Of a DNA stretch of 64,000 bases, positions 7,777 through 63,896 are shown piece by piece. The notes beneath the pieces are model-generated. The model was not told the DNA's origin and did not search any database. It saw only the letters and a program-made list of their open reading frames with translations. The stretch is from Arenibacter aquaticus (GTDB lineage Bacteria > Bacteroidota > Bacteroidia > Flavobacteriales > Flavobacteriaceae): NCBI RefSeq assembly GCF_003957295.1, contig NZ_RQPJ01000003.1, forward strand, positions 275,994 to 339,993. The letters are read 5' to 3'. Position 1 is the stretch's first letter. The number at the start of each line of letters is the position of its first letter. The translations under genes were made by a program, and so were the position numbers.

Positions 7777-7817
7777 TTGGATACTTATAGCCACTTAACC
7801 AGAAACCTTCAAAATAA

Positions 7818-9350: not shown

Positions 9351-9362
9351 CTTTTCCAACTA

Positions 9363-9408: not shown

Positions 9409-9456
9409 AACTTTAACAACAACACAAATCACATAAATTATTTTAATTAAATAAAA

Positions 9457-26713: not shown

Positions 26714-28294
26714 TTATTTAATGAATGACAAAATTCTCTTTCTCACTTTAAACCAACCGTTGTTTAAATCACCGTCACATTCCTCTATCAATATTTTTTT
26801 CAATTTCTCAGCTACCTCCTCATTACCTTCAAGTAGATTCTTCTCTTCCTTATAATCCTCTGGCAGATAGTATAATTGAAATATTTCATCGGCTGCAAAA
26901 TATCTGAGTTTCCAACCATCGTTAGACACAATTGCAGGACCCATAAACGAAGAGTACACTACATAATCATGCTCTTTGTGATTTTCACCTAACAACTCAG
27001 GAAGGTAAGAAACCCCATCTTTAAACTCAGGCAATTCAAAACCAACCAAATCGGCCATAGTAGCCATAAAGTCGTAGTTTGCAACCAAGGCATCGGAAGT
27101 TACTCCCTCCTTAATTTTTTCTGGCCACCTCACCATCAATGGCACTCGCACGCCTCCTTCCCAATTACTCCTTTTAACACCGGCCATACCATCATTGCCA
27201 TCAAACACATCACCCGCCAATTCACTATAATATTTGGTATTGACATCATCAAAGAACTCCCCGGTCTGCATATTTCTAACCGGCTTCAATATTCTACCTT
27301 CCTTGGTATAGTATATTTCATGGCCATTATCACCGGTAAAAACAACCATAGTGTTATCATCCAGCCCCAAAGCTTTTAATTCATTCATAATAATCCCCAC
27401 ATGGTCATCCAACATTTTCACCATAGAAGCATATTCCTTCTCTATCTGTGTAAGCCTGTCGTCATTTACAAAATCTTCATGCACGCTAGGTATAGCAACG
27501 GGACCATGAGGTAATTGGGTTGGATGGTACAAGAAAAATGGCTTGTCCTTATTATCCCTTATAAACGATACTATTTTTTCTATAAACAGATTTTGGGAAT
27601 AAACGGCCTTACCTTCCATATTCCATCGCTCAGCATAAGCTTTCTCTGTTTCCTTCTCCATAGTCTTTCCACAATTGGCCCAGGTATTACCTTCTATATT
27701 GACCAAATTGCCATTTTCAAATAGAAAAGGAGGGTAAAAGCCATGACAACGTACATGATCCAAGTATCCATAATAATAATCCCAACCATGTCTTTTCATC
27801 TGCTTATCTGTGGTAGAAAAACCCCATTCCAGTTTACCAACTTCCCCTGTAACATAACCTGCACTCTTGAAGATTTCAGCTAGAAAGACTTCATTTTCCG
27901 GAATCTCACCCAATTGATCGTTCAACTTCCGTTCTATTTCTTCTTGATCCATCTTGCCTCTGGAAATATTCATATAGGCACCTCCAGCAGTTATTTTCCA
28001 ACGATCTATTTGCGCATCGTGGTACCCAGAAATTAAACTAGCCCTTGCCGGAGCACAAAACATGCCTCCATAGGCATTTTCAAAACGCATGCCTTCCTTG
28101 GCTATATTATCAATATTAGGTGTGCTAATTATCTTCTGCCCTTCAGAGGACAGTAAGCCCCTGCCTAGATCATCTGCATAAATAAGTATCACGTTGGGTT
28201 TTTCCACCTTGCTATTTACTTCCTTTTTTACACCCGAACAACCTACAATTACCAAAACCGCGGTCAATAATCCAAAACAGTTTTTTACACTCAT
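26714..28294 (-). CDS. Sulfatase (S1 family), lipoprotein, CxPAR-type active site
   Basis: A 526-residue lipoprotein sulfatase with lipobox AVLVIVGC. Metal aspartates lie in YADDLGRG, the formylglycine Cys80 in FCAPARASLISGY and late metal ligands in TGDNGHE. The active-site motif is C-A-P-A-R rather than the C-S-P-S-R common in this window; Cys, Pro and Arg are retained, so activity is still expected. It is the first gene of the leftward block, 65 bp before the ECF sigma gene, and could share its transcript. The partner sulfated sugar is unknown. Confidence 0.93.
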   Translation of the reverse strand: MSVKNCFGLLTAVLVIVGCSGVKKEVNSKVEKPNVILIYADDLGRGLLSSEGQKIISTPNIDNIAKEGMRFENAYGGMFCAPARASLISGYHDAQIDRWKITAGGAYMNISRGKMDQEEIERKLNDQLGEIPENEVFLAEIFKSAGYVTGEVGKLEWGFSTTDKQMKRHGWDYYYGYLDHVRCHGFYPPFLFENGNLVNIEGNTWANCGKTMEKETEKAYAERWNMEGKAVYSQNLFIEKIVSFIRDNKDKPFFLYHPTQLPHGPVAIPSVHEDFVNDDRLTQIEKEYASMVKMLDDHVGIIMNELKALGLDDNTMVVFTGDNGHEIYYTKEGRILKPVRNMQTGEFFDDVNTKYYSELAGDVFDGNDGMAGVKRSNWEGGVRVPLMVRWPEKIKEGVTSDALVANYDFMATMADLVGFELPEFKDGVSYLPELLGENHKEHDYVVYSSFMGPAIVSNDGWKLRYFAADEIFQLYYLPEDYKEEKNLLEGNEEVAEKLKKILIEECDGDLNNGWFKVRKRILSFIK

Positions 28295-39834: not shown

Positions 39835-42237
39835 ATGAAATCCATCCCTTTATTACACAAAGCGCCCATTTGGGTCGGGATATTTTTAGTATCACTTTGG
39901 AACACACAAGCTCAAAATAAGCTTACAGCTGGTGCAGACGAACGCACCCCTTCCAAAGCCCAATATTTTAGTTGGATAAACAACACCAATGAAGGTCCTA
40001 CCGCTGAGCATACAAAGATCAACTTGGACTTTTTTGGTTGGCTTAAAAGCCAATATGGTATGCAATTGGATATTTATGCCATGGATGCCGGAGCCATAGA
40101 TGGTAAAAATTTCTATGGCAGCATATACTCCGATAGATTTAAAAAGCAATTCCCTCAAGGCTTCGATCCTCTTTACCAACAGGCAAAGGCCCTGGATATT
40201 CGCTTAGGGGTCTGGGGCGGACCTGATGGGTTTGGCGATACACCAGAGGAAGAAAAGGCACGAATAGACCAAATGGTAAAGTTGTGCAGGGATTATGATT
40301 TTGCTCTTTTTAAGTTCGATGCAGTTTGCGGCCCCCTACGCCCCGAAAAGGAAGATGCCTTCATTGAAATGATGCAACAGGCCCGTGAATACAGCCCAGA
40401 CCTTATTTTATTAAACCACCGCCTAGGCCTGGATAAAGCCAAGCCCTATGCCACTACATTTCTATGGGGAGGCAATGAAACCTATATAGACGTTCATATG
40501 GCTAATACCATGACGGCTCCACACAATAGAGCACAGGCAATGTCTAGAGGGCTTGTTCCCCACTTACAACGCTTAACGGAAGACCATGGTGTTTGTATTT
40601 CTTCATGTATTGATTATTGGGAGGACGATTTAATATTACAATCCTTCAATAGAAGTTTAATTCTCTCCCCTGAAATTTATGGAAACCCATGGCTTTTGAA
40701 TGACGATGAATTTTCCAAATTGGCCCAAATCTACAACCTGCATAGGAAGTACAGGGATATTCTAGTTGAGGGAAAAGTGCTAAGTGATTCCTACGGACCC
40801 AATGCCGTTTCCAGAGGGGATGGAAAAACCCAAATATTAAGCCTTAGAAATTTAAATTGGGACTCGGCCACATATTCCATAACACTAAACGAAGAAATAG
40901 GTCTTAAGGCTGAAGGGGATATAACTCTTCTTCAATTACATCCTACCGAAAAATTGATCGGGACATTTTCAAAAGGGGAAACCATACCCGTTGAAGTGCT
41001 CCCCTTTAGATCGGCCTTGTTCTTGGCAAGTACAGAAGAATACAAGGACCCAGTTATCACTGGGGCCGACTTTAGAACGATACGAAATATTTCTAATGCC
41101 CCTATTGAAATAGAAGTATTGGGAATGCCAGGGACCACATCCAACATTGGCCTATTAAACCCAGACCAATATACTTCTGCTCAGATCGATGGTAAAAATG
41201 CCGATCGTTTACTAAAAGGCAAAAAGCTGAAACTCAATTTTCCCGGTGACAAATTAAAACATAACTTTCATCGCCAACTAAATCCGTTTGCAGAAATAGC
41301 CATTCCGGAAGATGTAGCATCCCTGTACGAAGCCACGATTTTTGCCGCTGATAACAATGCACTTGAAGTAAGGTCCTTGCAACGGTCTGGAGAAACCAAC
41401 ATCCCAGAAGTAAAAGCTGCCCGTGATGCATTTTTTAATCAAGAAGCTTTTGTAAATAGGGGTGTTTGGGACAAGAATTTATTTGACGGCGATTTGGAAA
41501 CCGGGTTTTGGCCTCAAAAGAAATATCGTTTGGACACCCGTATTGAAGGGGGTACCCTACGATTGGATTTGGGAGCGGTAACCTTTTTGGATAAACTTAT
41601 CATCACGGTCCCCAATGAATTTGCCTTACAGCCCTTACTTGTTGGGGAAGGTAATTTTGTTGAAGTCTCTACCGATTTGGTAAATTGGGAAGAGCTCACC
41701 TACTTGGCCGAAAAGCAATCCGAAGTGAACATAGGAAAAAAAGTGCGTTATCTAAGGTTTAGAAACTTCCCACAGCAAATAGTAGAAATTGAAGGCTTGG
41801 CCAACGGACAAAAATTGGATAGGAGCCAATGGAGAGCTTCCAACCTGTTTGCACATCCCAGTAGAAAAAAGGCAAAAAAAGTATGGAAGTCCAGAATAGT
41901 ACTGGACGAAATAGCCGAAGGTAGTTATCTATCAGTAGCCCTGAACGGAAAACATGGCATTGAAGGTGCCTATGCCGCCGCCAAGGTAGGAGAAGAATAT
42001 TTAGGAGCCGATAACCGTGCTTCGTCCTTTCCCGCCAATAACTGGGAATTTATGACCGCCAGACGCGACAAGAACTACACCTATTTTATTCCTTTGGACA
42101 AAAGCATGATTGGAAAGGAAATAGAAGTTTTTGTAATGGGATATGATGAAGACAACCTGAATTTTGATCCGGAATTATATATCACGGCCTACCCACATCC
42201 TTGGAAAAAAATAAAACTAACCCTTAATAAAAAGTAG
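39835..42237 (+). CDS. Putative TIM-barrel glycosidase with C-terminal discoidin-like domain, family unassigned
   Basis: An 800-residue secreted protein (signal peptide to about NTQAQ). Residues about 30-330 look like a (beta/alpha)8 barrel with alpha-galactosidase-like features: YFSWINNTNEGPT, LDIYAMDAGAIDG, LGVWGGPDGFGD, and Asp162 in LFKFDAVCG at the place where clan GH-D enzymes carry the nucleophile. A beta domain follows (about 335-400). Residues about 540-670 look like an F5/8 type C (discoidin) domain, with LFDGDLETGFWP and GTLRLDLGAVTFLDKLII. I cannot name the CAZy family: it does not carry the GH27 signatures of its neighbour. It is packed 12 bp after GH78 and 10 bp before an esterase. 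Confidence 0.65.
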   Translation: MKSIPLLHKAPIWVGIFLVSLWNTQAQNKLTAGADERTPSKAQYFSWINNTNEGPTAEHTKINLDFFGWLKSQYGMQLDIYAMDAGAIDGKNFYGSIYSDRFKKQFPQGFDPLYQQAKALDIRLGVWGGPDGFGDTPEEEKARIDQMVKLCRDYDFALFKFDAVCGPLRPEKEDAFIEMMQQAREYSPDLILLNHRLGLDKAKPYATTFLWGGNETYIDVHMANTMTAPHNRAQAMSRGLVPHLQRLTEDHGVCISSCIDYWEDDLILQSFNRSLILSPEIYGNPWLLNDDEFSKLAQIYNLHRKYRDILVEGKVLSDSYGPNAVSRGDGKTQILSLRNLNWDSATYSITLNEEIGLKAEGDITLLQLHPTEKLIGTFSKGETIPVEVLPFRSALFLASTEEYKDPVITGADFRTIRNISNAPIEIEVLGMPGTTSNIGLLNPDQYTSAQIDGKNADRLLKGKKLKLNFPGDKLKHNFHRQLNPFAEIAIPEDVASLYEATIFAADNNALEVRSLQRSGETNIPEVKAARDAFFNQEAFVNRGVWDKNLFDGDLETGFWPQKKYRLDTRIEGGTLRLDLGAVTFLDKLIITVPNEFALQPLLVGEGNFVEVSTDLVNWEELTYLAEKQSEVNIGKKVRYLRFRNFPQQIVEIEGLANGQKLDRSQWRASNLFAHPSRKKAKKVWKSRIVLDEIAEGSYLSVALNGKHGIEGAYAAAKVGEEYLGADNRASSFPANNWEFMTARRDKNYTYFIPLDKSMIGKEIEVFVMGYDEDNLNFDPELYITAYPHPWKKIKLTLNKK

Positions 42238-47527: not shown

Positions 47528-49207
47528 TTATTCTTCCCACCCCTGTTTTGTTACAATTGGAACATAACCTACTTCCATACCAGCTGGCGGGGTTACTATT
47601 AGGGCCCCATCTATATTGGCCAGTTCCCCTGTTCTTGGGGGTGGAAGATATTCCTGTTCCTTGGTCCATTTCCTATGTAATTTTTCTACACGCTTCTGAA
47701 GCTCCTCCCTTTCCGCATCCGAGAGATCGGCATTTAGCAATGCAGGCTGATCAACGAATCGATACCAATAGTAGGTGACTGTACTTCCGTCTCCTATTTT
47801 GGTATTGAATGGTCCTGCTACAGGTCCTGGTTTTTTCCAATTGCTCTCCTCACCTTCCGGAGTAATGTAAGGTTTCAAAGGCTTATCCGTAGAGGCAAAG
47901 CTAACCTTGTCCAGTCCGGATTGCGCAGGCACCTCCTCCGGTTGTATAGCTACCCAATGAGGTTTACCGTCCTTTCTTTTCTCCAGGTGATAGTATTCCG
48001 GAAGCGTCATCAACTGACCATCCTTGGTATTTGTCTTTGTTACCAATTGTTTGTTCCACTTGTAGCCAAAGGTGGTTGAATCCAAAGCTACTGGAGTGGC
48101 CATGGAGTTCCAGTCTATGGGCCATCTCTGATCTTTTGGCACACCCTTGGAGTATAGTTTCCAACTAGAACCTGCCTTTCCCTTAAAGGTATGCACAACG
48201 GCTTGTTTGGGGTCAATGGCACCACTTACCGCTGGACCGTTATTCTCCAACCACTGTTTTACTCCATCCCAAAGGGCACTCTTTTTATATGCTGTCATTT
48301 GGTGTATTAGCACTGATTCCCCTTTTGGTCCAGCTGGAAAGGAGGTCGGCGCCAGCCTTGCATATACCTCCCCATTGCTATCTGTGTATTGTACGCTAGG
48401 AATATGCTGGGTTTCCATTTGTACCGGCTTGTTTGGTTTAGCAGGTCTTGTATCCAAGAACATCCCGGCCAATTCCGGCTCTTCCAAGATGGGTTTTGAG
48501 AAAAAATAAGGTGTAAAAAAGGCTACAGGCCCTTTAAAGTTACCGGTGTTCAAAAACAAGGTCCAAGAATTATCCCCTGTGGGTAAATTTTTGCCCGCCG
48601 TGGTAGTTTTGGCTTTGATAAGCGGCAGGGGCAAATAGCCGTAGCCAAATAATTCTCCACAGGTCCCCTGTTCAAGATTCAGACCATCTGGAGGCCATAA
48701 AACCCAAGGGCTGAGTTGAGCAACGCCATACTTCCCTTTTGGCTTATCCCAGTCCCTTCCTTTTCCTGCTCCGGGGCCATTGGCCCAAGCACTGAAATTC
48801 AGCGCTACGCCACCCATTATAAATTTAGGTGTTTCGGTTGCAAAACGTGTATCCCGCCACCAGCCAAGTCCGCCTTCTATGTCATTGTACAATTTTCTAT
48901 CGGGTTTAGGTATATCGAAACTGGGATGCATCCAGGTACCAAATAGACCTGTCTGAAAACTATTTCCCGGATACTCCTTTAATAAGGGCCATGCAGCCAC
49001 ATAGGTAGAGAAACCTCCGTTGTAACTCTCTGGTACCTTATTGATCCCTACCATAAGATAACCGTTCATGGAAACCTTATCTGCCTTGGTCGATGCCTCA
49101 TTGCCTTGCGAATGGCCAAGGTTTGCACCAAAAATTACAACGGATAGGAAAAGTCCCTTTAGAATATGACTCTTTGTGCACCTCCCGTTAATCTTGTTTT
49201 TTTTCAT
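47528..49207 (-). CDS. Secreted protein of unknown family
   Basis: A 559-residue protein with a signal peptide (LFLSVVIFGANLGHSQ). I do not recognise a family. The N-terminal half is rich in Gly, Trp and Pro (YNGGFSTYVAAWPLLKEYPG, GGLGWWRDTRFATETPK, AQLSPWVLWPPDGLN), and the whole chain looks beta-rich and soluble. Near the C-terminus is a charged helical segment (DAEREELQKRVEKLHRKW). No SGNH, sulfatase or TIM-barrel motif is visible. Flanked by sulfatases and in line with the second SusCD, it may bind or cleave the polysaccharide. It is a candidate for the missing endo-acting function, but that is speculation from context. Confidence 0.85.
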   Translation of the reverse strand: MKKNKINGRCTKSHILKGLFLSVVIFGANLGHSQGNEASTKADKVSMNGYLMVGINKVPESYNGGFSTYVAAWPLLKEYPGNSFQTGLFGTWMHPSFDIPKPDRKLYNDIEGGLGWWRDTRFATETPKFIMGGVALNFSAWANGPGAGKGRDWDKPKGKYGVAQLSPWVLWPPDGLNLEQGTCGELFGYGYLPLPLIKAKTTTAGKNLPTGDNSWTLFLNTGNFKGPVAFFTPYFFSKPILEEPELAGMFLDTRPAKPNKPVQMETQHIPSVQYTDSNGEVYARLAPTSFPAGPKGESVLIHQMTAYKKSALWDGVKQWLENNGPAVSGAIDPKQAVVHTFKGKAGSSWKLYSKGVPKDQRWPIDWNSMATPVALDSTTFGYKWNKQLVTKTNTKDGQLMTLPEYYHLEKRKDGKPHWVAIQPEEVPAQSGLDKVSFASTDKPLKPYITPEGEESNWKKPGPVAGPFNTKIGDGSTVTYYWYRFVDQPALLNADLSDAEREELQKRVEKLHRKWTKEQEYLPPPRTGELANIDGALIVTPPAGMEVGYVPIVTKQGWEE

Positions 49208-49343: not shown

Positions 49344-50945
49344 TTATTTTTTGGTTTTACTCCCCAATTCTTTCACTTTAGTAATACCAATGGGCTGTCT
49401 ATTTTTTGGGGCACTGCGGCCACTAATTTTTAAGTGATTTAGCAGCTGCTGTAGTTCTATACGTTTCGCTTCGTTGGCATAATAAAGGTTTGTAGTCTCC
49501 CCCGGGTCTTCCGTTAGGTTGTATAATTGTCCTGCTGCACCAACAGCCGTTTCCGGTAAGGCATATTTTTTCATAAACCCTTTTTTATAACCATTGCCTC
49601 CAGAACCTTCATGGTCCAAGTATTTCCAGTTACCTTGGCGAATTTGAAACTCCCCTCTAAAACTTTGGGTCAATAAATGCGGCCTAATGGATTTATGATT
49701 GTCCTGCACCCCTAACATGGCCGGCAACATATCAAAACTGTCGGTTGCATCCTCATCGCTTAGCTCATACCCAACAACAGAGGCTAACGTGGCAAAAATA
49801 TCCGTGATGTTGGTCATCTGCGAGGAAACCAGACCTTTTGGAAACTTACCAGGCCAACGGGCAATAAAGGGTACCCTATGCCCTCCTTCCCAAGCATCGC
49901 GCTTCATTCCCCTCCAGCCACCAGAAGGATCATGGTCATGATCTTCGCGCATCCAATTTACATGAACAATTTCAGCACCATTGTCCGAGCTAAACATGAT
50001 CAGTGTATTATCATCTATCCCCAAATCATCTACCAAATCCAGAACCCGTCCTACAATAACATCCAGTTCACGGACAAAATCCCCTCTGGGACCAGCCTCG
50101 GTAAGTCCGTTAAACTCGGCTGCCGGAAGTACGGGAGCGTGGGCTATTTGAGTGGAAAGGATGGCAAAGAATGGCGTGTCGGGTGATTTTTTACGGTGTT
50201 CCGTAATAAAGTTCCTTGTCTTGTCATAGAAGAGAAGATCGGCTTCCATAAAATTGTATCCAGGGGACATCCAGCCCTCATCGTTGTCCCATCGCCACTT
50301 GCCACCAGGGTTTGGCAGATTATCCCTCTTATGCCTAACACTTGCAGGGACAGGAACCATACCATTTTCTATATAGACATATAATGGGTCTGTGGTAGGA
50401 CAGTTGGGTGTAATAAAGGATTCATCAAAGCCCCTTGCATTGGGGCCATCAATTAGCGGGGTACTTTTTTCATAATCGATAAGCAATGCGTTATCATAAC
50501 CCCCTCCCAATCTCTTATTATTTTTATCGAACCAACTAAGACCTACATGCCATTTTCCGAACACTCCCGTTCTATATCCCTTTTTCTGTAGCATTTGTGC
50601 AATGGTAAGGGTCCCTGGCTTTAGATAACTGGGGCCTCCCGGTCCTTCAAAAGCTGGTCCTCCCCTACCGGTAGAACGATAGATTTGTTGCCCGGACAAG
50701 AGTCCGTACCTTGAAGGTGAACAGATGGTAGACGGACTATGGGCATCGGTAAACATAACACCTTCCCGGGCCATTTTATCCAATCGGGGGGTCTTATAGG
50801 CCGATTCCCCATTATAGCAAGACAGGTCACCGTACCCCAGATCATCTGCATAAATAATGATAATATTAGGTAGCTCTTGAGCCAAGCCGCTAAGAGAAAT
50901 AAGAATAAAACTTAAGGTGAGTAACTGTATCTTAATTTTTGTCAT
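49344..50945 (-). CDS. Sulfatase (arylsulfatase A-like S1), secreted
   Basis: A 533-residue sulfatase with a type I signal peptide (LSFILISLSGLAQ). Metal aspartates lie in YADDLGYGDLSCYNGES, the FGly Cys75 in TICSPSRYGLLSGQQ and late ligands in SSDNGAE. GKWHVGLSW replaces the GKWHLGW of its paralogue. It contains a long insertion after the active site (STGRGGPAFEGPGGPSYL) and a Cys-Pro-rich ITPNCPTTDPLYVYIENG that may shape the substrate pocket. It lies between a sulfatase and the unknown 559-residue protein, about 130 bp from each. Confidence 0.94.
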   Translation of the reverse strand: MTKIKIQLLTLSFILISLSGLAQELPNIIIIYADDLGYGDLSCYNGESAYKTPRLDKMAREGVMFTDAHSPSTICSPSRYGLLSGQQIYRSTGRGGPAFEGPGGPSYLKPGTLTIAQMLQKKGYRTGVFGKWHVGLSWFDKNNKRLGGGYDNALLIDYEKSTPLIDGPNARGFDESFITPNCPTTDPLYVYIENGMVPVPASVRHKRDNLPNPGGKWRWDNDEGWMSPGYNFMEADLLFYDKTRNFITEHRKKSPDTPFFAILSTQIAHAPVLPAAEFNGLTEAGPRGDFVRELDVIVGRVLDLVDDLGIDDNTLIMFSSDNGAEIVHVNWMREDHDHDPSGGWRGMKRDAWEGGHRVPFIARWPGKFPKGLVSSQMTNITDIFATLASVVGYELSDEDATDSFDMLPAMLGVQDNHKSIRPHLLTQSFRGEFQIRQGNWKYLDHEGSGGNGYKKGFMKKYALPETAVGAAGQLYNLTEDPGETTNLYYANEAKRIELQQLLNHLKISGRSAPKNRQPIGITKVKELGSKTKK

Positions 50946-52748: not shown

Positions 52749-54458
52749 TTACCAATTGGGATTCTGGGTCAAATTCTCATTCAATGTTAATTCGTCAATA
52801 GGTAGGGGAAGTAAATAATCCCTATCAGGATTAAAACCATAGGCTCCTCCACTTAAGAAATCAACATAGGGATCCAAAAATCCTTCACCATTAACCGTCA
52901 GATTAGGATATTCAGCCTCAATCTCAGCAGTATAAGTGGTACCTAATGGTCTAGTGCCAACAAATAAATTGTGTGCTCTCCAGCGCATTAAATCATCCAA
53001 GCGGTTCCCTTCACCAAACAACTCAACCACACGCTCTCTTCTTACCTCTTGTACATAATCAGGTATGGTATATCCATAATCTGGCCATTCCGGATCAGGA
53101 GTAATGGCATTTAATGTTAGATGTGGCATACCTACCCTATCCCTTAAAAGGTTGATGGATAAATCAAGATCCGTTTGGGTAATCGTTCCCAATTCGGCCT
53201 TGGCCTCAGCATATATCAATAGGGTCTCGGCATATCTAAACAAAATATAGCCAATATCACGGGTTCTTTGGTTGTTCTCAACTATTTCCTTGGACCTCCA
53301 TTTCTCTATGGAATAACCTGTAGGGTTACGGGTCATATCAGGAATGCTAAAATAGGACTCATCGCCATTTAATGCCACAATATCCAAATCCCCTGGTGCC
53401 ATTACTGATTGGGCCAACCTAGGATCACGATTTACTTCAATTTCATCCAAGGTAGCATCGCCCACAAACTCATCACTTACAGAAATAGGATCTCCATCAG
53501 AAGCGAGGTAGTACTTGGTCATCTCCCGGGTCATACCGGACAAATTAGGCTGGTTCCACAAGGAATTCTGTATGTTATAGGTTAAATAATCATAATGCTT
53601 ATATAACATAACTTCTGGGTTACCACTATAATCTGTCTGAACAAATAGATCATAATAGGCTTTATCCACATCGCCGGTAGCAATAGAATAATTACCTGCA
53701 TCCATTACGGTCTTAGCCGCATCTGCCGCTATTTGCAAAAATCCTGATCCATCAGTGCTTCCGGCAAAATCGGTGCCTTGATGATACTTCTCCCAAGTTC
53801 CTTCGTACAAGGCTACCCTAGCTTTAAACTGAGCGGCTATATCCTTATTAATTCTGGATGGCCCTACTTCAGAAGCATATTCCAATTTAGCAATTGCCAA
53901 ATCAAGTTCATCTAGGATAAAATTGGCTACCTCAGTTCTGGGACTACGTGCTCCATATAAAATAGTCTCATCCTCCAAGTCCAATACCTCTGTTATTATA
54001 GGTAGGTCTCCAAATTTCTTGAACAGATCAAAATAGTACCAAGCTCTGAAAAAATGTCCCTCACCAACATAATGGTCGATTAAATTTCCAGTTTCTGCAC
54101 GTGCTGCGTTTTCAAGAAAATAATTTACATTTCTAATATTGGTCCAGCTCCAACCACCACCGGAGGCAGGTACAGATACTGTTCCATCCAATCTACCGGC
54201 ATTTGATGCCCCAAACCAGGTACTGGATTGGGCTATAATGTCCGTTCCAACATCAAGGGAAGGTGATGCACCTGCACTGGGCCAACCTGGTAAAGTGTTA
54301 TATAGGCGATTTAGGTACAATTGTAAATCTCCTTCAGTCTTCCAGAAATCCGCATCGGAGATCTGGTCTAGAGGTGTTTTTTCCAACAACTCATCGTCAC
54401 AGGAATTAAAAGATATTCCCGCAATCAATATTGTGATTATATATATTATCCTTTTCAT
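52749..54458 (-). CDS. SusD/RagB-family glycan-binding lipoprotein
   Basis: A 569-residue surface lipoprotein with lipobox AGISFNSC, followed by DDELLEKTPLDQISDADFW, the classic opening of mature SusD proteins. Helical repeats appear in FFRAWYYFDLFKKFGDLPII and ILFRYAETLLIYAEAKAELG. The C-terminus ends LTQNPNW, as expected. It lies 10 bp after susC. It is clearly different from the first SusD in this window, so the two pairs probably recognise different oligosaccharides. Confidence 0.96.
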   Translation of the reverse strand: MKRIIYIITILIAGISFNSCDDELLEKTPLDQISDADFWKTEGDLQLYLNRLYNTLPGWPSAGASPSLDVGTDIIAQSSTWFGASNAGRLDGTVSVPASGGGWSWTNIRNVNYFLENAARAETGNLIDHYVGEGHFFRAWYYFDLFKKFGDLPIITEVLDLEDETILYGARSPRTEVANFILDELDLAIAKLEYASEVGPSRINKDIAAQFKARVALYEGTWEKYHQGTDFAGSTDGSGFLQIAADAAKTVMDAGNYSIATGDVDKAYYDLFVQTDYSGNPEVMLYKHYDYLTYNIQNSLWNQPNLSGMTREMTKYYLASDGDPISVSDEFVGDATLDEIEVNRDPRLAQSVMAPGDLDIVALNGDESYFSIPDMTRNPTGYSIEKWRSKEIVENNQRTRDIGYILFRYAETLLIYAEAKAELGTITQTDLDLSINLLRDRVGMPHLTLNAITPDPEWPDYGYTIPDYVQEVRRERVVELFGEGNRLDDLMRWRAHNLFVGTRPLGTTYTAEIEAEYPNLTVNGEGFLDPYVDFLSGGAYGFNPDRDYLLPLPIDELTLNENLTQNPNW

Positions 54459-54468
54459 TGTTTTAGTT

Positions 54469-57400
54469 TTAGAAGTTAATGTTTAATCCTAATGAAACCA
54501 TCTTACTTATAGGATATTGGTCACCAATACGTCCGTCTCTTCCATCGAAAGCTTCAGGGTCATAGATCATTAAATCTGTAAATGTGAGCAGGTTTTCTCC
54601 AGAAACATATATTCTGGCACTGGACATTTTAGCCTTACTGGTTATCTCTTTTGGGATGGTATAACCAATTTGAACATTTTTCAACCTCAAATAAGCTCCA
54701 TTTTGCAAATACCTTGTGGTTGGGTAACGATAGTTTTTATTGTTTTGACCAGTAAATTGGTTATACGAATTAGGGAAATAGCCATCGGTATTGGGTCCTA
54801 ATGGATTTGCAGTGTCTTCTGCCCTAAAATAATCCAAATGCTCTGTATAAACATTGGCATGAAGCGGTCCGTTGGCAGGTCCCCTGAAGGTTCCAAGTCC
54901 CCTTAGGTCCAAATCACGCTTGCCTACACCTTGTACAACAAAAGAAGCATCAAACCCTTTCCAGGAAGCATCGGCACTTAAACCAAATTGAAAACGCGGG
55001 GTACTATTACCAATTACTTTTCTATCACCAGGATTGTCCTTGGTATTGTCCCCTATATCAATAACATTATCACCATTTAAATCCATATATTTTACGTCTC
55101 CAGGGAACCAGGCTCCAGAGTAAACAAAGGATTGGTCATTTTCCCATCCAGCTACGTCATCGGCAGTTTGGAAAAGACCTGCTGTTTCCATACCCCAGAT
55201 TTCATTGAGTTGCATCCCTTCGTAATAATTATTCAATATTTTCGTAGGGTTGTTATATTTAGTTATCTCACTTTTATAATCGGATAAAACACCTCTTACA
55301 CCATAAGAAAAATCATTGGAAGTATTTCTCCAAGAAACTTCAACCTCCCATCCAGTAGTAGTTACTTCACCACTGTTTATCTTTGGCACAGAAGTACCTA
55401 AAACATCAGGCACGGATTCTCCTGGTCCAACAAGGTTATCTATCTTGGATTGGTACCAGTCAAAAGTTACACCAAGCCTATTATTAAGGGTTCTAAGATC
55501 TAGCCCAAAATCGACCGTATTTACTTTTTCCCACGTTAAATTAACACTGGAAAGATTAGGTATTCCAACGGTCCACAATTGTTCTCCGCCAAATAACCAA
55601 GATGATTGCCCAATTGGCAAGGATGGTACATATAAATAATTACTTACATTTTGGTTACCAATAGAACCATAGGAACCTCTAAATTTCAAGAATTCTATTT
55701 GATCCTTCAAAGGATAGAAGTTCTCTTTGGACAGCACCCAACCACCAGAGAATGAAGGAAAGGTTCCCCATCTACTATCGGTCTCGAACTTAGATGAACC
55801 ATCCCTTCTAACATTCATCTCAAATAAATATTTTTCGGCATAATTATAGTTAAACCGTCCAAAAACACCTTGGGTAGACCAATGACCTTTACCATCGCTT
55901 ATGGTCTTTTCACCAACGGAGGTATTAATTGAGGGAATGGCATCGGTCAACAAATAAGCCGACCTAGCAAATAAATTGGAATATTTATACTTTTCCTGCT
56001 GATATCCTGCCATTGCATGAAAATTATGGTTTCCAAAGCTCTTGGTATAGGCCGTATAGATATTTGGAGACAAATAGGTATTGGTCCATAGCGTAGAATA
56101 ATAGCGGGTATTTTGCTGATTGGAAGAGGTAATTATTGAGCCTCCTTCGCCATCAGGTAATGCTGTGGGCACCGTTGGGAATCTGGATTGTTGACTATTG
56201 TCATTAGTACGGTAGTTAAACTCTATATTGGTAACCCAATCCTTAATCGGTTCAAGGGTCACCCTAGGAGAAAGTATTAACTGTCTCTTTGTTTCAAGGG
56301 ATTTTTGCAATTCCTGCTCTCCAATCCTACCGGTCCAAACATCGGTCCCTGGGAAAAACGCCGGCTTGGTAGGTTTAAGTCTGGTCATTAACAATGTTAC
56401 AAAAGATCTTCCTGATCCAGAAGTAGCGTGCGCGGGATATTCCTGCTCTTCATACTTATATTTTGTTAAAAGGGAAATATCCATCCAAGGAGTGGCCTTG
56501 GTGCTTATTTTGGCATCAATATTATAACGTGTAAAATAATCCTGCCCCACTTTCAATAGACCTTCTTCATCATAATACCCACCGGACACATAATAGGACA
56601 TTTTATCCGTACCTCCAGAAAAACTCAGGTTATGCTTAATTCGGGAACTGGTTTCTTTAATAAGGAGAGACTCCCAATCTGTAGCTGCAGAAGCATTAAG
56701 TCCGTCTACACCAAGATTCCAACGCAAACCATTTGCAGTCTCTTCAACTTCTGGGGCACTACCGGGATTGGCCAAATTCTGAGCTATATATTCCAATCTA
56801 GTCTCACTGTAATAAGGACTACCACCTGCATTTTCACTTGCCTGGTTCATGGTATAGGCAAATGACAGGGCATCTGCATTTTGTGGCATGTTCATGGGGG
56901 AAGTGATAGCATAATTGGTTGAATAGGAAATATTGACCCCATCGCCTTTCTTACCACTTTTGGTGGTAATCAAAATAACCCCAAAAGCAGCTCTTGCCCC
57001 ATAAATGGCAGAAGCCGCAACATCTTTCAATATAGATATGGTTGCAATATCATTAGGATCAATATCATTGATGCCCATTGGAATATTATCCACTAGGACC
57101 AAAGGAGCGTTCCCTCCCTCTAGGGATGTTAAACCCCTAATGCTCATGTTCATTGAAGCTCCAGGCTCACCTGTTGCACTGGAAGTAGAGATTTGTAGGC
57201 CCGGGGAGGCACCTTGCAAAGCTTGTTGCGCATTGGCCACTGGCCTATTGTCAAACATTTCTTCGCCTACAATTGAAACGGATCCAGTTAAATTTTCCTT
57301 TTTCTGTACTCCGTAACCTACAACTACCGCCTCATCCAAGGCTTGGGCATCTTCCTGTAAAAATCCGTCTACAGTAGTGTTACCACCTACCGGAACTTCC

Positions 57401-57657
57401 AAGCTTTGGTAACCTAAATAGGAAAATACCAATGTCTTTTCTCCTTCCGTCAAGGTAAGTTCATACACTCCATCAAAATCGGCAATTGCCCCATTTGAAG
57501 TTCCCTTTTGGATAACACTGGCACCCGGTAAGGGTCCGTCATTACTGGTTACTGTCCCAGTTACCGTCTGAGCTATTACTCCTATCGTACCGAAAAGGAA
57601 TAAAAGCATTGCATTGCAAAGTTTCAATTTGCAACTAATTTTACGTTTTTCTTTCAT
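54469..57657 (-). CDS. SusC/RagA-family TonB-dependent receptor without STN domain
   Basis: A 1062-residue outer-membrane importer. The signal peptide is followed directly by the carboxypeptidase-D-like regulatory domain (about 30-110, VTGTVTSNDGPLPGASV). The plug (VVVGYGVQKKENLTGSVSIV) and the beta-barrel ending in LGLNINF come next. It lacks the N-terminal STN domain of the other SusC and has no adjacent FecR or sigma gene, so its control should differ. It is preceded by a 689-bp gene-free region. It forms a tandem pair with SusD 10 bp downstream. Confidence 0.96.
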   Translation of the reverse strand: MKEKRKISCKLKLCNAMLLFLFGTIGVIAQTVTGTVTSNDGPLPGASVIQKGTSNGAIADFDGVYELTLTEGEKTLVFSYLGYQSLEVPVGGNTTVDGFLQEDAQALDEAVVVGYGVQKKENLTGSVSIVGEEMFDNRPVANAQQALQGASPGLQISTSSATGEPGASMNMSIRGLTSLEGGNAPLVLVDNIPMGINDIDPNDIATISILKDVAASAIYGARAAFGVILITTKSGKKGDGVNISYSTNYAITSPMNMPQNADALSFAYTMNQASENAGGSPYYSETRLEYIAQNLANPGSAPEVEETANGLRWNLGVDGLNASAATDWESLLIKETSSRIKHNLSFSGGTDKMSYYVSGGYYDEEGLLKVGQDYFTRYNIDAKISTKATPWMDISLLTKYKYEEQEYPAHATSGSGRSFVTLLMTRLKPTKPAFFPGTDVWTGRIGEQELQKSLETKRQLILSPRVTLEPIKDWVTNIEFNYRTNDNSQQSRFPTVPTALPDGEGGSIITSSNQQNTRYYSTLWTNTYLSPNIYTAYTKSFGNHNFHAMAGYQQEKYKYSNLFARSAYLLTDAIPSINTSVGEKTISDGKGHWSTQGVFGRFNYNYAEKYLFEMNVRRDGSSKFETDSRWGTFPSFSGGWVLSKENFYPLKDQIEFLKFRGSYGSIGNQNVSNYLYVPSLPIGQSSWLFGGEQLWTVGIPNLSSVNLTWEKVNTVDFGLDLRTLNNRLGVTFDWYQSKIDNLVGPGESVPDVLGTSVPKINSGEVTTTGWEVEVSWRNTSNDFSYGVRGVLSDYKSEITKYNNPTKILNNYYEGMQLNEIWGMETAGLFQTADDVAGWENDQSFVYSGAWFPGDVKYMDLNGDNVIDIGDNTKDNPGDRKVIGNSTPRFQFGLSADASWKGFDASFVVQGVGKRDLDLRGLGTFRGPANGPLHANVYTEHLDYFRAEDTANPLGPNTDGYFPNSYNQFTGQNNKNYRYPTTRYLQNGAYLRLKNVQIGYTIPKEITSKAKMSSARIYVSGENLLTFTDLMIYDPEAFDGRDGRIGDQYPISKMVSLGLNINF

Positions 57658-58346: not shown

Positions 58347-59180
58347 TTACTTGGACTTAACCTTATTTTTCCTAAGCAAGGCTATCATTGATTTCCCCAT
58401 CTTTTTACCCAGCCATATATTGGATTCTGAGTTAAAATGGGTATTATCCTCCCAGGTTTCAAGTTTATCTGTATTTATGATACGGACATATTTATCAGCT
58501 GCGGCCACCCTTTCCTGAGCTGCCTGGACCACCTCGGTAAAATCAAAGTTCCAAGGGGTTTTTCTTAGAAGGCCAATAGAGATACGCCCCATAACTATAG
58601 GTAGGTTATCTTTCCCAGTCTCCTTTCTTACGTCATTATAGAGCAGTTTTAAATTGTCCTCATAGGCATTTGCCCATTCCAAAAACTCCGCATCGGATTC
58701 CCCTTGCATCCACAACATCCCAGAAATTTCATAAGACCTTCCCTCACCCTTTAAATTTTCAAGGGCGTTTTCCATATTCTTGAGAAATCTTACATACATG
58801 GGTTTGCCGGGAAGCCAATGTTTCCACAACTTGGTACCACCTCCGGAGGTCTTTACTATGGCTATGGTATGTTTCGGATATTTTTTGGCAAGTAGATGGG
58901 TAAAAGCAATTTCGGGACCGAATTTGAACTTTCTACGTTCTGCAAAAGTGTCGGTTCCCAATGTGACCCACATTTTCTTTTTATTGTCCCAGATCATACT
59001 ATTTCCCGGGGGCACAGCATACTCCTCTGGCAGCCCTTCAGCTCTTCCGGTACCATCCATATTGGACTGTCCTCCAAGAATAAAGACCTTTACGGGCCGG
59101 GGAGAATCTATTTGCGCTATACAAGCCACACTTGCCAAAGCAAATAGAAGAAATAATAGTGGGGAAACTTTATATCTCAT
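58347..59180 (-). CDS. SGNH carbohydrate esterase (SASA/DUF303)
   Basis: A 277-residue single-domain secreted esterase (signal to about SVACIAQ, with a Cys that could alternatively be lipidated). The nucleophile is Ser39 in FILGGQSNMDGTG. Other blocks are VKTSGGGTKLW, LWMQGESDAEF and the C-terminal DNTHFNSES, which carries the catalytic His. It is the short form of the domain found at the N-terminus of the GH27 fusion protein. It lies 46 bp after a sulfatase and likely deacylates the same polysaccharide. Confidence 0.9.
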   Translation of the reverse strand: MRYKVSPLLFLLFALASVACIAQIDSPRPVKVFILGGQSNMDGTGRAEGLPEEYAVPPGNSMIWDNKKKMWVTLGTDTFAERRKFKFGPEIAFTHLLAKKYPKHTIAIVKTSGGGTKLWKHWLPGKPMYVRFLKNMENALENLKGEGRSYEISGMLWMQGESDAEFLEWANAYEDNLKLLYNDVRKETGKDNLPIVMGRISIGLLRKTPWNFDFTEVVQAAQERVAAADKYVRIINTDKLETWEDNTHFNSESNIWLGKKMGKSMIALLRKNKVKSK

Positions 59181-59226: not shown

Positions 59227-60804
59227 TTATTCGGTCACCAATGCAGTGGTGTCCTTATATTGCTCTCTTAAACCGGCCAATTTTTCATGAAGATCTTGGG
59301 TTATATCACCATAGCCTTCTTGTCCGTATATATTGTGCATCTCTGTGGGGTCTTCTTTAAGGTCATAAAGCTCCCATTGATCTATATTATTGTAAAAGTG
59401 GATCAACTTATACCTATCTGTCCTTACCCCATAATGTCTTTTTACAGAATGCGGACCTGGGTATTCATAGTAGTGATAGTACAATGCATCTCTCCATTCC
59501 GTTTTTTCCTTCCCTTCCAAGATTGGCAGTAAAGATTTACCTTGCATATCCTCGGGCACTTCTACACCGGCCAATTCAAGAAAAGTAGGGGCATAATCTA
59601 TATTTTGCACTAATTGGTCCACTGTTCCTGTTTTAAACCTGGATGGTAGTTTCATCACCAATGGTGTACGGAAGGATTCCTCATACATAAACCTTTTATC
59701 GAACCAACCGTGCTCTCCCAAATAAAACCCTTGATCCGAAGTGTACACTACAAGAGTGTTTTCTGCCAAACCATTTTCTTCCAAATAATCCAATATTTCA
59801 CCTACACTATCATCTACGGAAGCAATACATCTTAGATAATCTTCAAGATATCTCTGATACCTCCATTCCATTAACTCCTTTCCACTAAGGTTGGCTTCCT
59901 TGTAATACTTTATCTCCTTATCATAAGCCTTGTCCCAGGCCGCACGTTGCTCTGGATTCATACGGTTTATTTGTCTTTCAAAATACTTACGGAGTGGTCC
60001 ATCTATTTCCCCTTCCTTATCGTACATCTTTAGATCGTTCACCGGACAGAAATCTTTTATATGCATCTTCTGGCTTGCCGCCGCCGTTCTATTATCGTAA
60101 TCATCGTAGAAATTATCGGGCAGGGGAAACTTTACATCGTTATATTTTTCCAAATAGGTAGTATCTGGCATCCAACATCTATGCGGAGCCTTATGGTGCA
60201 TCAACATAGCGAAAGGCTTTTCCTGATCCCGGTTTTTTAACCAATCCAAACTAAACTTGGTAATGAGTCCTGTTACATAACCCTCTACCCTTTCTTTTAC
60301 CCCCATTTCATTGAAATCAGGGTTATAATAATCTCCCTGTCCAGGTAAAATGTTCCAATAATCAAAACCAGTAGGGTCACTTCCCAAATGCCATTTACCT
60401 ATCATAGCGGTTTCATAGCCTTCTTTTTGCAACAACTTAGGAAATGTCATCTGGCTGCCATCAAATCTCTGACTATTGATCTGCTGCCCGTTCAAATGAG
60501 AAAATTTACCGGTAAGCATAACAGCCCTACTTGGAGAACAAATGGAATTGGTAACAAAACTTCTGGTAAACTTTACACCCTCATTGGCGATCCTATCAAT
60601 ATTAGGGGTTTGGTTCAATTCCCCATTATAAGCGCTCATAGCCTGGTAGCCATGGTCATCTGTCATAATATAGATAATGTTCGGTTTTTTGGTGGCCACG
60701 GCCACCTTTTCCCCCTTACAGGACGAAAGACCCACAAGCAGTATCAAACCAAAAAGAATTAAACAAATATGCGATATCTCAAAAGTTGAATTTCTCTTTG
60801 ACAT
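59227..60804 (-). CDS. Sulfatase (S1 family, SDQG/LGEHG type), lipoprotein
   Basis: A 525-residue lipoprotein sulfatase with lipobox LVGLSSC. The metal motif is MTDDHGYQAMSAYNG, the FGly site is Cys89 in SICSPSRAVMLTGKFSH, and the late motif is TSDQGFYLGEHGWFDKRFMYEE. Gln in SDQG and the LGEHGWFDKR block place it with sulfatases related to N-acetylglucosamine-6- and iduronate-type enzymes rather than arylsulfatase A. A helical insertion (about 250-320) rich in charged residues lies between the two metal motifs. It follows the modular peptidase-like gene by 50 bp. Confidence 0.94.
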   Translation of the reverse strand: MSKRNSTFEISHICLILFGLILLVGLSSCKGEKVAVATKKPNIIYIMTDDHGYQAMSAYNGELNQTPNIDRIANEGVKFTRSFVTNSICSPSRAVMLTGKFSHLNGQQINSQRFDGSQMTFPKLLQKEGYETAMIGKWHLGSDPTGFDYWNILPGQGDYYNPDFNEMGVKERVEGYVTGLITKFSLDWLKNRDQEKPFAMLMHHKAPHRCWMPDTTYLEKYNDVKFPLPDNFYDDYDNRTAAASQKMHIKDFCPVNDLKMYDKEGEIDGPLRKYFERQINRMNPEQRAAWDKAYDKEIKYYKEANLSGKELMEWRYQRYLEDYLRCIASVDDSVGEILDYLEENGLAENTLVVYTSDQGFYLGEHGWFDKRFMYEESFRTPLVMKLPSRFKTGTVDQLVQNIDYAPTFLELAGVEVPEDMQGKSLLPILEGKEKTEWRDALYYHYYEYPGPHSVKRHYGVRTDRYKLIHFYNNIDQWELYDLKEDPTEMHNIYGQEGYGDITQDLHEKLAGLREQYKDTTALVTE

Positions 60805-60854: not shown

Positions 60855-63800
60855 TTAAAACTTTACATCCACAGTAGAGAACCATTTTCTTCTAAGGTAT
60901 TCCTCCACTCCCTTTCTTTCCCATTCCTCAAGCTCCCTATCCAAAAGAATCATTTCGGCTATAGACCCCTCCCAAAGACCTTCGGTCCTGGCCAGACCCG
61001 AACTGGACTTGGATTCCAACTGCACCGTTAGGATACAAAACTCCATTGGGTTTGGCGTATTGAACGGATCTATTTGAATTCCGTTCAAGAACACCTTTCC
61101 ATTTTTGGTTTTGGGATCTATATTATCCTTGTCGAAAATAGCCTTGCCAGAGTCCTTACTTTTTCCCAACCAAGCATTGGACCCCCTAAAGAGGCTTGTT
61201 CCCGGGAAGGACATACTACTTTCCTTATAGACCATAATGATGGTTTGATAATCCTTCACCTCTTCTTTCATAATGGACACCCATACATGATCAAAAGCAG
61301 CAACACCTTTGCCATTCAATTTATTGGGCTCATATTTCATGAACAACTCGTTGGGACTCCTTCTAAGCTTATCTTTCCAATCCCCTACCGGCCCACGTTG
61401 AGGGTACACCTCATCTACCTTGCCATTCCCATCAATATCACTGGCATCAAACCACATCTTAATACTCTCATACCCCAATTCTGATGGCTCTATTGCAATA
61501 GGTCTTTTGTTGGCCAAGTCGTCCACTCCAAAACCGATCCTATTAACACTCTCCGCCCTGGATAGATTGTTCTGTGCAGCCACATAATAATTTCCGGTTG
61601 CACTGGGCTTAAAAGAATTACCTATAGCCAAAGGCTCTTCATAGGACTCGCCTTTTGTTTTCCGTGCATCGGCTGCATACCACTTGTAGGTATATCCTGG
61701 AAGTGGGTCCACGACAGACACGGCCCCTTCCATATTTTCAATTTCCAAATTATCAATCTCAAAAGGATATACTTCCGGAACCGTAACAGTACCCTCCATT
61801 AGCTCGTCTTCGCTATCTGTTACCATATAACTGTACTCCCCGGGCGCCAGATTTATTCTTTTATCATCAATGCCCATCTTGGACCTAACACTACTAGGTA
61901 CCCTTAAATAATTAATATTGGGAATAGACTGTCCATTGGAAACAATTGCCACTTTGTTTACACCTTCATGGAGGTATACTTTCATGGTCGCCACATCCCA
62001 TCCCGTATATAATGGCCTGGTCTGGTTAAAGTGTATAGTCTTGGATTCCAATTTCCCATTAACGGAAATCTGGGCATCCGACCCCTTTAAGTTGATACCG
62101 CCATAAATTACATCTACAGGATAAAAACCACTATTGGCCACTTCCACATCCCAAGACACGGAACCTTCACCTCCCTTACAATCCAAATAGGAATTGTCAC
62201 TGGCGCTAAAAAATGTCTTTATTTGATGTTCTGGAAGCGTTATGGTCGCATTTTCAGGCTCATATATAATGCTTTTCCCATATTCATAAACTGCATTTTT
62301 CCACTTTACGGTATAGGGCGACTGACCACCGATAACACTCAGGGCTATGGTTCCATTATCTTTATTGATTTCTGAAGCCTTAACATCTGCCACCACCGCT
62401 ATAGTGGATTTCTTCTTTTTATTTTTCTTGGATTTTTTGGTTGAACCAGCACTCCCCAGGCTACTTTCATAAATAGAGGCACGGGCCTTAGCAGTTCTAA
62501 ATTCGCTATCCATTACCACAACGTCATAGATACCCACTCCAACTTCGTCCAATGATTCTGAGGTGCTTCCGTTGGTCCATTTGTAGGTAAATGGTGGGGT
62601 TCCTCCAGAAACAACGGGCTCCACATTAAAAAGTCCAGCTTGCTTACTAACTTTCTTAGTACGGGTTGTCACCTCCAATGGCTTGGCATCAGAAGTTGGT
62701 GCGGTATTTAATATATTCCATTGCACCTCAACCTTTGGGAATCGGGCAAATGGTGGATCAGGTCTAATATTTGGGGTTTCATCTGTAATGGAACAAACAA
62801 GTTCATATTCTTCAATTTCCCCAAATTCAACTTCCAGTTCATCGGTCCCGCTTGCAATCAATTTTCCATTTAAAAACCATCTTACCACTTGGGTATTGGG
62901 TTCCGGCACAATATGATCTACCGCAAACCGAAGCTTTTTATTACCTGCAATTTCAATTGATTTTTGTTCAGGGACAGTACTTTTAATAATATCCACCAGG
63001 TCATACGCCCTCATGGAAACCCTTTGGTTACATATGGGGCACATTTCCTCCGTATTATCAAACACCCCTGCACCCATTATACAACCTTGGGCAGTGGACC
63101 TATAATAATCCACAAGGTGATACTGATTTCCTTCAAAGGCACCTACCTTATCCAGGTATTGCGCTTCATAAGGAGTTGGCAATGGAGTACTGGGCTCTAT
63201 CCACTTTCTCCATTTAATTTTTTCCCTTTCATATTCCAGTTCGGACGCGTAGGTAGGAAAGGCTGAGGTTCCTGTTGCTCCGGTGGTATACTCATCCCCC
63301 AAACTCATACAGGTATGGGAAATCTCGTGTAGCATTTTTCCTATTCCATTCCCAGCAATGACTGCATTACCTACCCGTTTCTCTAAATTACGGGCAGCTC
63401 CTCCGCCACCCTTCTCACGGTTGGGCATTATCAAAAAAGTAACCCATCCCCGGTGTTCACTTTTCCATGGCAAAAACAGCTTGTCGCGGATGGCATCCAT
63501 AGCCTCCAAGTCTATCCCTTTTTTCCACTCAGGAGTATCGGGCATCCAAAGCCCATAAACATTAAAAAACTCTTTGTAATGGGAATATGCCGTTTGCGCT
63601 CTTTCATCTCCGTAAGTAAGGGCCGCGACCAAGGATTCCTCTATATCCTTTACAAATTCGCCCCTCATATCAGGGGAATTATAAGGCTCCTCCTCCCTAG
63701 AGGTCCATTGGTTCACAATAACTACGTTAATCCTATTGTCCTTATCCCCTGTTACCTGTATAGGAATTAATTCGGACATTTCAATAAACGCATCAATTTG

Positions 63801-63896
63801 AGCCTCTGTCCATTTTTCAGCCTTTCCCCTATTCTGGGTATAGCCTTGAAAGAACATCAAAGAAGCAAAACCAATAAACGCTATCCATTTTTTCAT
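60855..63896 (-). CDS. Modular secreted protein with M64-like zinc peptidase domain
   Basis: A 1013-residue secreted protein (signal peptide to about QGYTQ). The N-terminal third contains HEISHTCMSLGDEY, with His190, Glu191, His194 and Asp201-Glu202; this is the HExxHxxxxLxDEY signature of M64 (IgA peptidase-like) metallopeptidases. Two Ig/SprB-like repeats follow (about 310-480; VVSGGTPPFTYKWTNGS). A Lys-rich linker (KKSKKNKKKK) and a CBM6-like domain (about 560-680; SWDVEVANSGFYPVDVIYGG) come next. The C-terminal LamG/concanavalin-like part (about 800-1013) opens with IKMWFDASDIDGNGKVDE. It could trim glycoproteins or cell-wall protein associated with the polysaccharide. It is the first visible gene of block D. 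Confidence 0.8.
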   Translation of the reverse strand: MKKWIAFIGFASLMFFQGYTQNRGKAEKWTEAQIDAFIEMSELIPIQVTGDKDNRINVVIVNQWTSREEEPYNSPDMRGEFVKDIEESLVAALTYGDERAQTAYSHYKEFFNVYGLWMPDTPEWKKGIDLEAMDAIRDKLFLPWKSEHRGWVTFLIMPNREKGGGGAARNLEKRVGNAVIAGNGIGKMLHEISHTCMSLGDEYTTGATGTSAFPTYASELEYEREKIKWRKWIEPSTPLPTPYEAQYLDKVGAFEGNQYHLVDYYRSTAQGCIMGAGVFDNTEEMCPICNQRVSMRAYDLVDIIKSTVPEQKSIEIAGNKKLRFAVDHIVPEPNTQVVRWFLNGKLIASGTDELEVEFGEIEEYELVCSITDETPNIRPDPPFARFPKVEVQWNILNTAPTSDAKPLEVTTRTKKVSKQAGLFNVEPVVSGGTPPFTYKWTNGSTSESLDEVGVGIYDVVVMDSEFRTAKARASIYESSLGSAGSTKKSKKNKKKKSTIAVVADVKASEINKDNGTIALSVIGGQSPYTVKWKNAVYEYGKSIIYEPENATITLPEHQIKTFFSASDNSYLDCKGGEGSVSWDVEVANSGFYPVDVIYGGINLKGSDAQISVNGKLESKTIHFNQTRPLYTGWDVATMKVYLHEGVNKVAIVSNGQSIPNINYLRVPSSVRSKMGIDDKRINLAPGEYSYMVTDSEDELMEGTVTVPEVYPFEIDNLEIENMEGAVSVVDPLPGYTYKWYAADARKTKGESYEEPLAIGNSFKPSATGNYYVAAQNNLSRAESVNRIGFGVDDLANKRPIAIEPSELGYESIKMWFDASDIDGNGKVDEVYPQRGPVGDWKDKLRRSPNELFMKYEPNKLNGKGVAAFDHVWVSIMKEEVKDYQTIIMVYKESSMSFPGTSLFRGSNAWLGKSKDSGKAIFDKDNIDPKTKNGKVFLNGIQIDPFNTPNPMEFCILTVQLESKSSSGLARTEGLWEGSIAEMILLDRELEEWERKGVEEYLRRKWFSTVDVKF

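Follow-up and report, generated by a model that had tools for sequence, protein, structure and literature searches.

The closest described relatives of the protein analyzed here are two Bacteroidota M64 peptidases, BF3526 of B. fragilis (PDB 9qdi/4df9) and BACOVA_00663 of B. ovatus (3p1v). BF3526 consists of an N-terminal beta-sandwich and an M64 domain; its catalytic zinc is held by H311, H315 and D322, with E312 as the base and Y324 on the scissile carbonyl, and a second zinc is bound by E323, C398, C409 and C412 (PMC12402451; statements from this 2025 paper, here and below, are those of its available part). The same paper gives the family motif as HEXXHXXXGXXD, kept across M64 clusters, although Glu replaces Asp in some and the catalytic residues are absent from one, and places BF3526 and its homologues outside polysaccharide utilization loci (PULs). 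It also describes ThomasA, the M64 immunoglobulin A (IgA) peptidase of Thomasclavelia ramosa, which resembles the protein studied here in having an M64 domain followed by beta domains, with the same motif positions and second zinc site, and differs in that it cuts gut IgA; the ThomasA crystal did not show the catalytic zinc (PMC12402451). Here we describe an M64-type metallopeptidase encoded within a PUL, at 60855-63896 on the minus strand of a 64,000-nucleotide stretch of the Arenibacter aquaticus genome (contig NZ_RQPJ01000003.1, positions 275,994 to 339,993; hereafter the window).

Unlike BF3526, the window protein carries extra C-terminal modules, including a family 35 carbohydrate-binding module (CBM35), and its gene lies in a PUL. 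No report of a PUL-linked M64 was found in the open-access literature searched, and the combination of an M64 domain with a C-terminal CBM35, inside a PUL, is what is new. PUL-linked peptidases of other families are known, and the original prediction, which called peptidases unusual in PULs, was only partly right on this point: in the available parts of two papers, co-located peptidases in a marine flavobacterial PUL are taken as a hint of a glycoprotein (PMC6298971), and PUL25 of B. caccae holds genes for M60-like putative O-glycopeptidases, which likewise are metallopeptidases in a glycan locus with a proteoglycan target hinted at by the authors, yet belong to another peptidase family (PMC12269599). 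We favor, at about even chances, the explanation that the window protein is an exported zinc peptidase that would work in the PUL by cutting its substrate, a sulfated glycoprotein or proteoglycan, in the protein part. The strongest selection falls on the catalytic domain, and relatives occur in two Bacteroidota classes. PULs are normally read as polysaccharide machines, and a sulfatase-rich PUL with a kept peptidase would be a concrete case of a locus for both the sugar and the protein parts of a sulfated glycoprotein; if true, this would extend M64 past the two roles described in PMC12402451, IgA cutting and the trimming of pre-digested proteins.

The M64 domain and its active site

The gene and the parts of its product that bear on catalysis are as follows.

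60855..63896, minus strand: M64-type metallopeptidase gene, 1013 aa (intact open reading frame, orthologs known)
63834..63896, minus strand: signal-peptide-like N-terminal stretch, residues 1-21 (by eye)
62967..63776, minus strand: M64 catalytic domain, residues ~41-310, the most conserved part (Pfam, alignment)
63288..63329, minus strand: zinc motif HEISHTCMSLGDEY, residues 190-203, with H190, E191, H194 and D201, plus E202 and Y203 (alignment)
63030..63083, minus strand: C272, C286 and C289, which with E202 match the BF3526 structural zinc site E323, C398, C409, C412 (alignment)

The gene is real, intact and of M64 type, as predicted, with the strand corrected to minus; full-length orthologs at 79-83% identity occur in four of the 17 other Arenibacter genomes, so the gene is not a chance reading frame. 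These were named as Arenibacter palladensis, A. troitsensis, A. algicola and Arenibacter sp. ARW7G5Y1, a list that is a lower bound, as the scan with two short peptide patterns missed the relative in genome G243. The assignment to M64 was borne out both by the zinc-ligand residues described below and by PF09471 (Peptidase_M64), which matches residues 156-247 with an E-value of 2.2e-12 and 47.2 bits against a Pfam cut-off of 26, over 96 of its 302 profile positions; all five Arenibacter copies exceed this cut-off. The best solved M64 relatives were 3p1v (E 1.6e-4) and 4df9/9qdi (E 6.3e-4) with the single sequence as query, and a profile-based PDB search gave E 5.2e-5 and E 3.4e-5, respectively. 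The single NCBIfam match, to an M6 domain model at E 0.052 and far under its cut-off, is taken as the shared HExxH. No lipoprotein Cys was seen by eye in the N-terminal stretch, and no type IX C-terminal sorting domain was present among the Pfam matches to E 0.01 or the NCBIfam matches to E 0.1.

The likeness to BF3526 and BACOVA_00663 by alignment comprises the catalytic zinc ligands, the general base, the Tyr after the motif and the structural zinc site of one Glu and three Cys. In HMMER and multiple alignments, H190, H194, D201, E191, Y203, E202, C272, C286 and C289 fall on the BF3526 zinc-site residues, and the multiple alignment shows the catalytic and structural-zinc residues to be invariant in 7/7 proteins of the clade (the window protein and six relatives) and in 20/20 ordinary M64 proteins, which are ~460 aa long. 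H190, H194 and D201 would hold the catalytic zinc, with E191 as the general base and Y203 helping to bind the scissile carbonyl, and E202 together with C272, C286 and C289 would hold the structural zinc. What had been called a full M64-type zinc signature is complete in its zinc ligands and base and is not letter-perfect: the Gly position of the motif is Ser198 in the window protein and Ser in all eight clade proteins. Only three of the 20 ordinary M64 proteins have Gly at this position, and Ser198 is not evidence of a dead enzyme. By these alignments, the motif Gly is looser in the 20-protein sample than PMC12402451 describes, which limits its weight as a defining M64 feature.

Selection and distribution

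The strongest selection acts on the peptidase domain. Its identity to the window protein, 91-92% in four Arenibacter genomes, 68% in Ginsengibacter and 74% in a relative from a metagenome-assembled genome (MAG), is the highest of all parts of the protein. For three of four comparisons, the ratio of nonsynonymous to synonymous substitution rates (dN/dS; rough values, since dS is mostly >1) is lowest in the M64 domain (0.022, 0.019 and 0.035), the fourth having saturated dS. It is second lowest in the C-terminal module (0.047-0.063) and highest in the SprB and Ig regions (0.10-0.21) and, in one comparison, in the beta domain (up to 0.21).

Five of the 18 Arenibacter genomes, A. aquaticus included, carry the M64 gene, and the same five carry an ortholog of the neighboring SusC at ≥91% identity; the gene was thus found in 5/5 Arenibacter genomes with the syntenic locus, and its lack at such loci, one of the two outcomes that the original prediction had named as counting against it, was not observed. 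Eight of the remaining 13 genomes have SusC proteins at 38-46% only, and five have none at that threshold. The order M64-sulfatase-esterase-SusC-SusD-sulfatase is kept in the four other Arenibacter genomes. In G243, of another genus in the same family, the M64 protein is 65% identical over its full length and is accompanied by the sulfatases and the esterase, with the SusC/SusD pair ~7 kb further on, on the opposite strand. The protein of Ginsengibacter hankyongi (locus L073), which belongs to Chitinophagia, versus Flavobacteriia for Arenibacter, is 51% identical, and the gene order there reads sulfatase, sulfatase, M1 peptidase, sulfatase, M64, alpha-galactosidase with NPCBM, NAGLU-type alpha-N-acetylglucosaminidase and SusC-like gene; of its three sulfatases, one is of the N-acetylglucosamine (GlcNAc)-6-sulfatase type (7p24 and 5g2v ranked first). 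A sulfatase lies ≤8.5 kb from M64 in 8/8 clade loci, the MAG locus being a 6.7-kb contig with an incomplete neighborhood. The clade is rare: at E <1e-200, only A. aquaticus and G243 were matched among 397 genomes of the family (a sample in whose matches the four other Arenibacter carriers do not appear), and only A. aquaticus among 395 genomes of the phylum and likewise among 395 of the class, the three samples overlapping.

The M1-family peptidase of the Ginsengibacter locus (L073:6008-7669), two genes before M64 and between sulfatases, is a second peptidase in that locus.

Accessory domains

The remainder of the protein is divided as follows.

62697..62966, minus strand: beta domain after the catalytic domain, residues ~311-400, with conserved columns 324-393 in common with ordinary M64
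62280..62696, minus strand: SprB-type repeat region and Lys-rich linker, residues ~401-539, mostly absent in the MAG relative (Pfam, alignment)
61884..62279, minus strand: CBM35 module, residues 540-671 (sequence match and modeled fold)
61497..61883, minus strand: Ig-like region, residues ~672-800, absent in the MAG relative (Ig_7 match below the cut-off)
60858..61496, minus strand: C-terminal module, residues 801-1013, 83-87% identity in Arenibacter, no fold assigned (alignment)

The carbohydrate-binding module that the original prediction had labeled CBM6-like is confirmed as such a module and belongs to CBM35, both by sequence (PDB 2vzp, E 1.4e-6) and by modeled fold (2w1w, Z 16.4 with a root-mean-square deviation of 2.4 over 124 aligned residues; 2vzp, Z 15.2). 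CBM6 chains also match the fold of residues 540-671, at Z ~12 and lower. When the full-length model was compared by fold, at least a fifth of the matches listed cover residues 539-671 only, and among the high-ranking CBM35 matches are chains with bound glucuronic acid (2vzr) and delta-4,5-anhydrogalacturonic acid (2w47). Of the Ig/SprB repeats expected after the M64 domain, the SprB repeat exceeds its Pfam cut-off (30.9 versus 28), whereas the Ig-like match, Ig_7, falls below it (17.8 versus 27.3); a match to Golvesin_C is also below the cut-off. The C-terminal part, called LamG-like in the original prediction, was not confirmed as such: residues 801-1013 gave no significant match in a Pfam scan of seven members, a PDB profile search or an hhalign comparison with one LamG-type domain. 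The MAG relative (L075, 765 aa) keeps the M64 domain, the beta domain, CBM35 and the C-terminal module and lacks the Ig region as well as the greater part of the SprB region; this retention suggests that the four kept parts are the working parts of the protein.

The PUL and its likely glycan

The PUL setting was confirmed, in that SusC/SusD pairs and degradative enzymes surround the M64 gene. The window holds 11 sulfatase (PF00884) genes and two SusC/SusD pairs, and the 30 kb beyond the window hold three more sulfatases and two more SusC/SusD pairs. Starting from M64, the order is M64, sulfatase, SASA esterase, SusC, SusD, sulfatase, sulfatase, unmatched protein and sulfatase, the first of these neighbors being:

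59227..60804, minus strand: sulfatase, the next gene after M64 with a 50-base gap (Pfam; PDB 7p24, then 9s03 and 5g2v)
58347..59180, minus strand: SASA-type carbohydrate esterase (Pfam)
54469..57657, minus strand: SusC-type receptor, with 91-94% orthologs in exactly the other M64-carrying Arenibacter genomes (Pfam, ortholog search)
52749..54458, minus strand: SusD-type protein (Pfam)

Other enzymes in the window are three of GH95 type, one of GH2 type, one alpha-galactosidase that also has an esterase domain, a single rhamnosidase and further esterases. From these enzyme families, we infer that the glycan is a sulfated and probably acetylated heteroglycan, that its sugars include galactose, rhamnose and either fucose or L-galactose, and that GlcNAc may be among them; a protein part of the substrate is suggested by the peptidase itself. 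The adjacent sulfatase matches 7p24, a 'mucin-desulfating sulfatase' (E 1.5e-195), then 9s03 and the 'N-acetylglucosamine-6-sulfatase' 5g2v (7.5e-174), and the L-galactose-6-sulfatase 7lha is a weaker match (6.9e-103). The GlcNAc-6-sulfatases 7p24 and 5g2v, presumably the S1_11 enzymes BT3177 and BT4656, are matched over nearly the whole length of the adjacent sulfatase, from which they may differ in substrate, as this could be L-galactose-6-sulfate. In the available part of PMC10154612, subfamily S1_11 removes 6-sulfate from GlcNAc and its aquatic members use the same triad for L-galactose.

A PUL-dedicated peptidase with a glycoprotein or proteoglycan target, along the lines of the original prediction, is the explanation that context supports best, with M64 in 5/5 genomes that carry the SusC ortholog and with peptidases and sulfatases recurring together in Ginsengibacter. 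The example given there, an arabinogalactan-type protein of algae, is not supported: GH95, GH2, alpha-galactosidase, rhamnosidase, esterase and sulfatase families are present, which are not known as the set for arabinogalactan-protein breakdown, and the adjacent sulfatase is closest to GlcNAc-6-sulfatases.

Comparison with ordinary M64 loci

Ordinary M64 genes were compared in 20 loci of ~17.5-18 kb each, 18 taken from the 53 family hits outside the clade (the 20 best by E-value minus G020, on a 9.9-kb contig, and G428, with an open frame of only 310 aa) and two being the best of nine outside hits in the phylum sample, which together are not a random sample. Neither a sulfatase nor a SusD was detected in any of the 20 loci by a BLAST screen, with the window PUL's own proteins as references, and by hidden Markov models (HMMs) built from its SusD and sulfatases and run over 253 open reading frames. 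Sulfatases exist elsewhere in 18 of these 20 genomes, up to 69 in number (PF00884, per-genome tallies). A control run of the HMMs on the clade loci L070-L075 recovered a sulfatase in 6/6 and a SusD in 4/6; in Ginsengibacter, neither screen detects a SusD although SusC is followed by a 539-aa gene, and the ordinary loci may accordingly hold a divergent SusD.

Six of the ordinary loci (L101, L102, L110, L112, L113 and L114) have a ~2,100-aa protein near M64 that is partly SusC-like; for the two that were inspected, the top BLAST match to SusC extends over 217 and 104 residues. In L105, from Flavobacteriaceae, a short ordinary M64 stands beside a GH95-like gene (7299-11414; 38% identity to window 13949-16387), the sole GH95-like match among the 20 loci.

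Proposed function and alternatives

In the mechanism that we favor, CBM35, and probably also the C-terminal module, would anchor the enzyme on the glycan part of its substrate, possibly via a uronic acid, and the anchored M64 domain would cut the protein part of the sulfated glycoprotein or proteoglycan. The neighboring sulfatases, esterase and glycosidases would strip the sugar side and SusC/SusD would import the products, the steps presumably occurring in this order. Several points weigh against this explanation. Thirteen of the 18 Arenibacter genomes live without the M64 gene. The adjacent sulfatase could, by analogy with aquatic enzymes, act on L-galactose-6-sulfate instead. BF3526, the Bacteroidota M64 for which data exist, works on proteins that have already been digested (PMC12402451), and endo-cleavage of a glycoprotein therefore cannot be assumed. 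The AlphaFold models, each predicted from seven sequences, are of low confidence, with a mean pLDDT (predicted local distance difference test) of 46.8 for the full length and 46.2 for the M64 domain, too low for zinc geometry. A bolder proposal, which we offer tentatively and consider clearly less probable, is that the clade forms a PUL-dedicated subfamily of M64 glycopeptidases in which recognition of the sulfated glycan by CBM35 and the C-terminal modules would position the M64 site on a glycosylated stretch of the protein; such enzymes would be an independent counterpart of the M60-like O-glycopeptidases, opening sulfated glycoproteins in marine and soil bacteria.

The alternative that survives best, although we regard it as unlikely, is that the peptidase serves to clear or process proteins in the surroundings of the PUL machinery, such as the cell's own surface proteins, enzymes of competitors or the host, or peptides released by other proteases, rather than a glycan-carrying substrate. 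The trimming of pre-digested proteins by BF3526 (PMC12402451) is consistent with such a role, as are the 20 ordinary loci, whose lack of detected sulfatase and SusD indicates that the M64 family in itself has no tie to glycans. However, the CBM35 on the protein itself and the sulfatase neighborhood kept across two classes point to a glycan.

It is improbable that the M64 fold here serves a function other than proteolysis, for example as a glycan-binding scaffold or a hydrolase of another bond. Ser in place of the motif Gly and the divergence from the solved M64 structures (E ~6e-4 to 3e-5) would fit such a change, but the domain is the one under the strongest selection and keeps all zinc ligands, the general base and the Tyr that binds the carbonyl, and Gly is missing in 17 of the 20 ordinary M64 proteins as well. 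Least probable, and already disfavored, is a hitch-hiking gene in the PUL by chance, which the fluid gene content nearby (two extra SusC/SusD pairs beside M64 in this genome only, of five compared) would allow, but which is at odds with the presence of M64 in 5/5 syntenic Arenibacter loci, in a further genus where the same sulfatases and esterase accompany it, and in Ginsengibacter, where its neighbors are related ones.

Other features of the locus

The sulfatase genes 26714-28294 and 49344-50945, both on the minus strand, do not fit the simple maturation-motif pattern with which the proteins were scanned. A perfect inverted repeat, TTATTAAA-N5-TTTAATAA, lies upstream of M64 at ~64243 (243 bases past the window end, in joined-contig coordinates), with exact or near copies (by eye, ≤2 mismatches) at the equivalent place in four other Arenibacter genomes. 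As the mark of a regulon it was rejected as too weak: over 94 kb, there is one exact copy and several near copies lie inside genes, with three copies at ≤2 mismatches (0.4 on average in 10 shuffles) and 17 at ≤3 (4.6 on average). The repeat may possibly be an operator or merely AT-rich sequence.

Two long proteins without a Pfam or PDB match, encoded at 39835-42237 (plus strand, 800 aa) and 47528-49207 (minus strand, 559 aa), are candidate unknown enzymes. The former is conserved in three of four relatives, the stretch of the fourth having ended before that position, and the latter was seen in G007 only among the relatives compared. Two extra tandem SusC/SusD pairs lie directly upstream of M64, just past the right end of the window (L002:5905-15803), where four other Arenibacter genomes have none. 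The sulfatase upstream of these pairs is best matched by 6hr5, an alpha-L-rhamnosidase/sulfatase, at E 1.6e-116, as judged from a 417-aa piece of its 466-aa open reading frame at the end of the L002 stretch.

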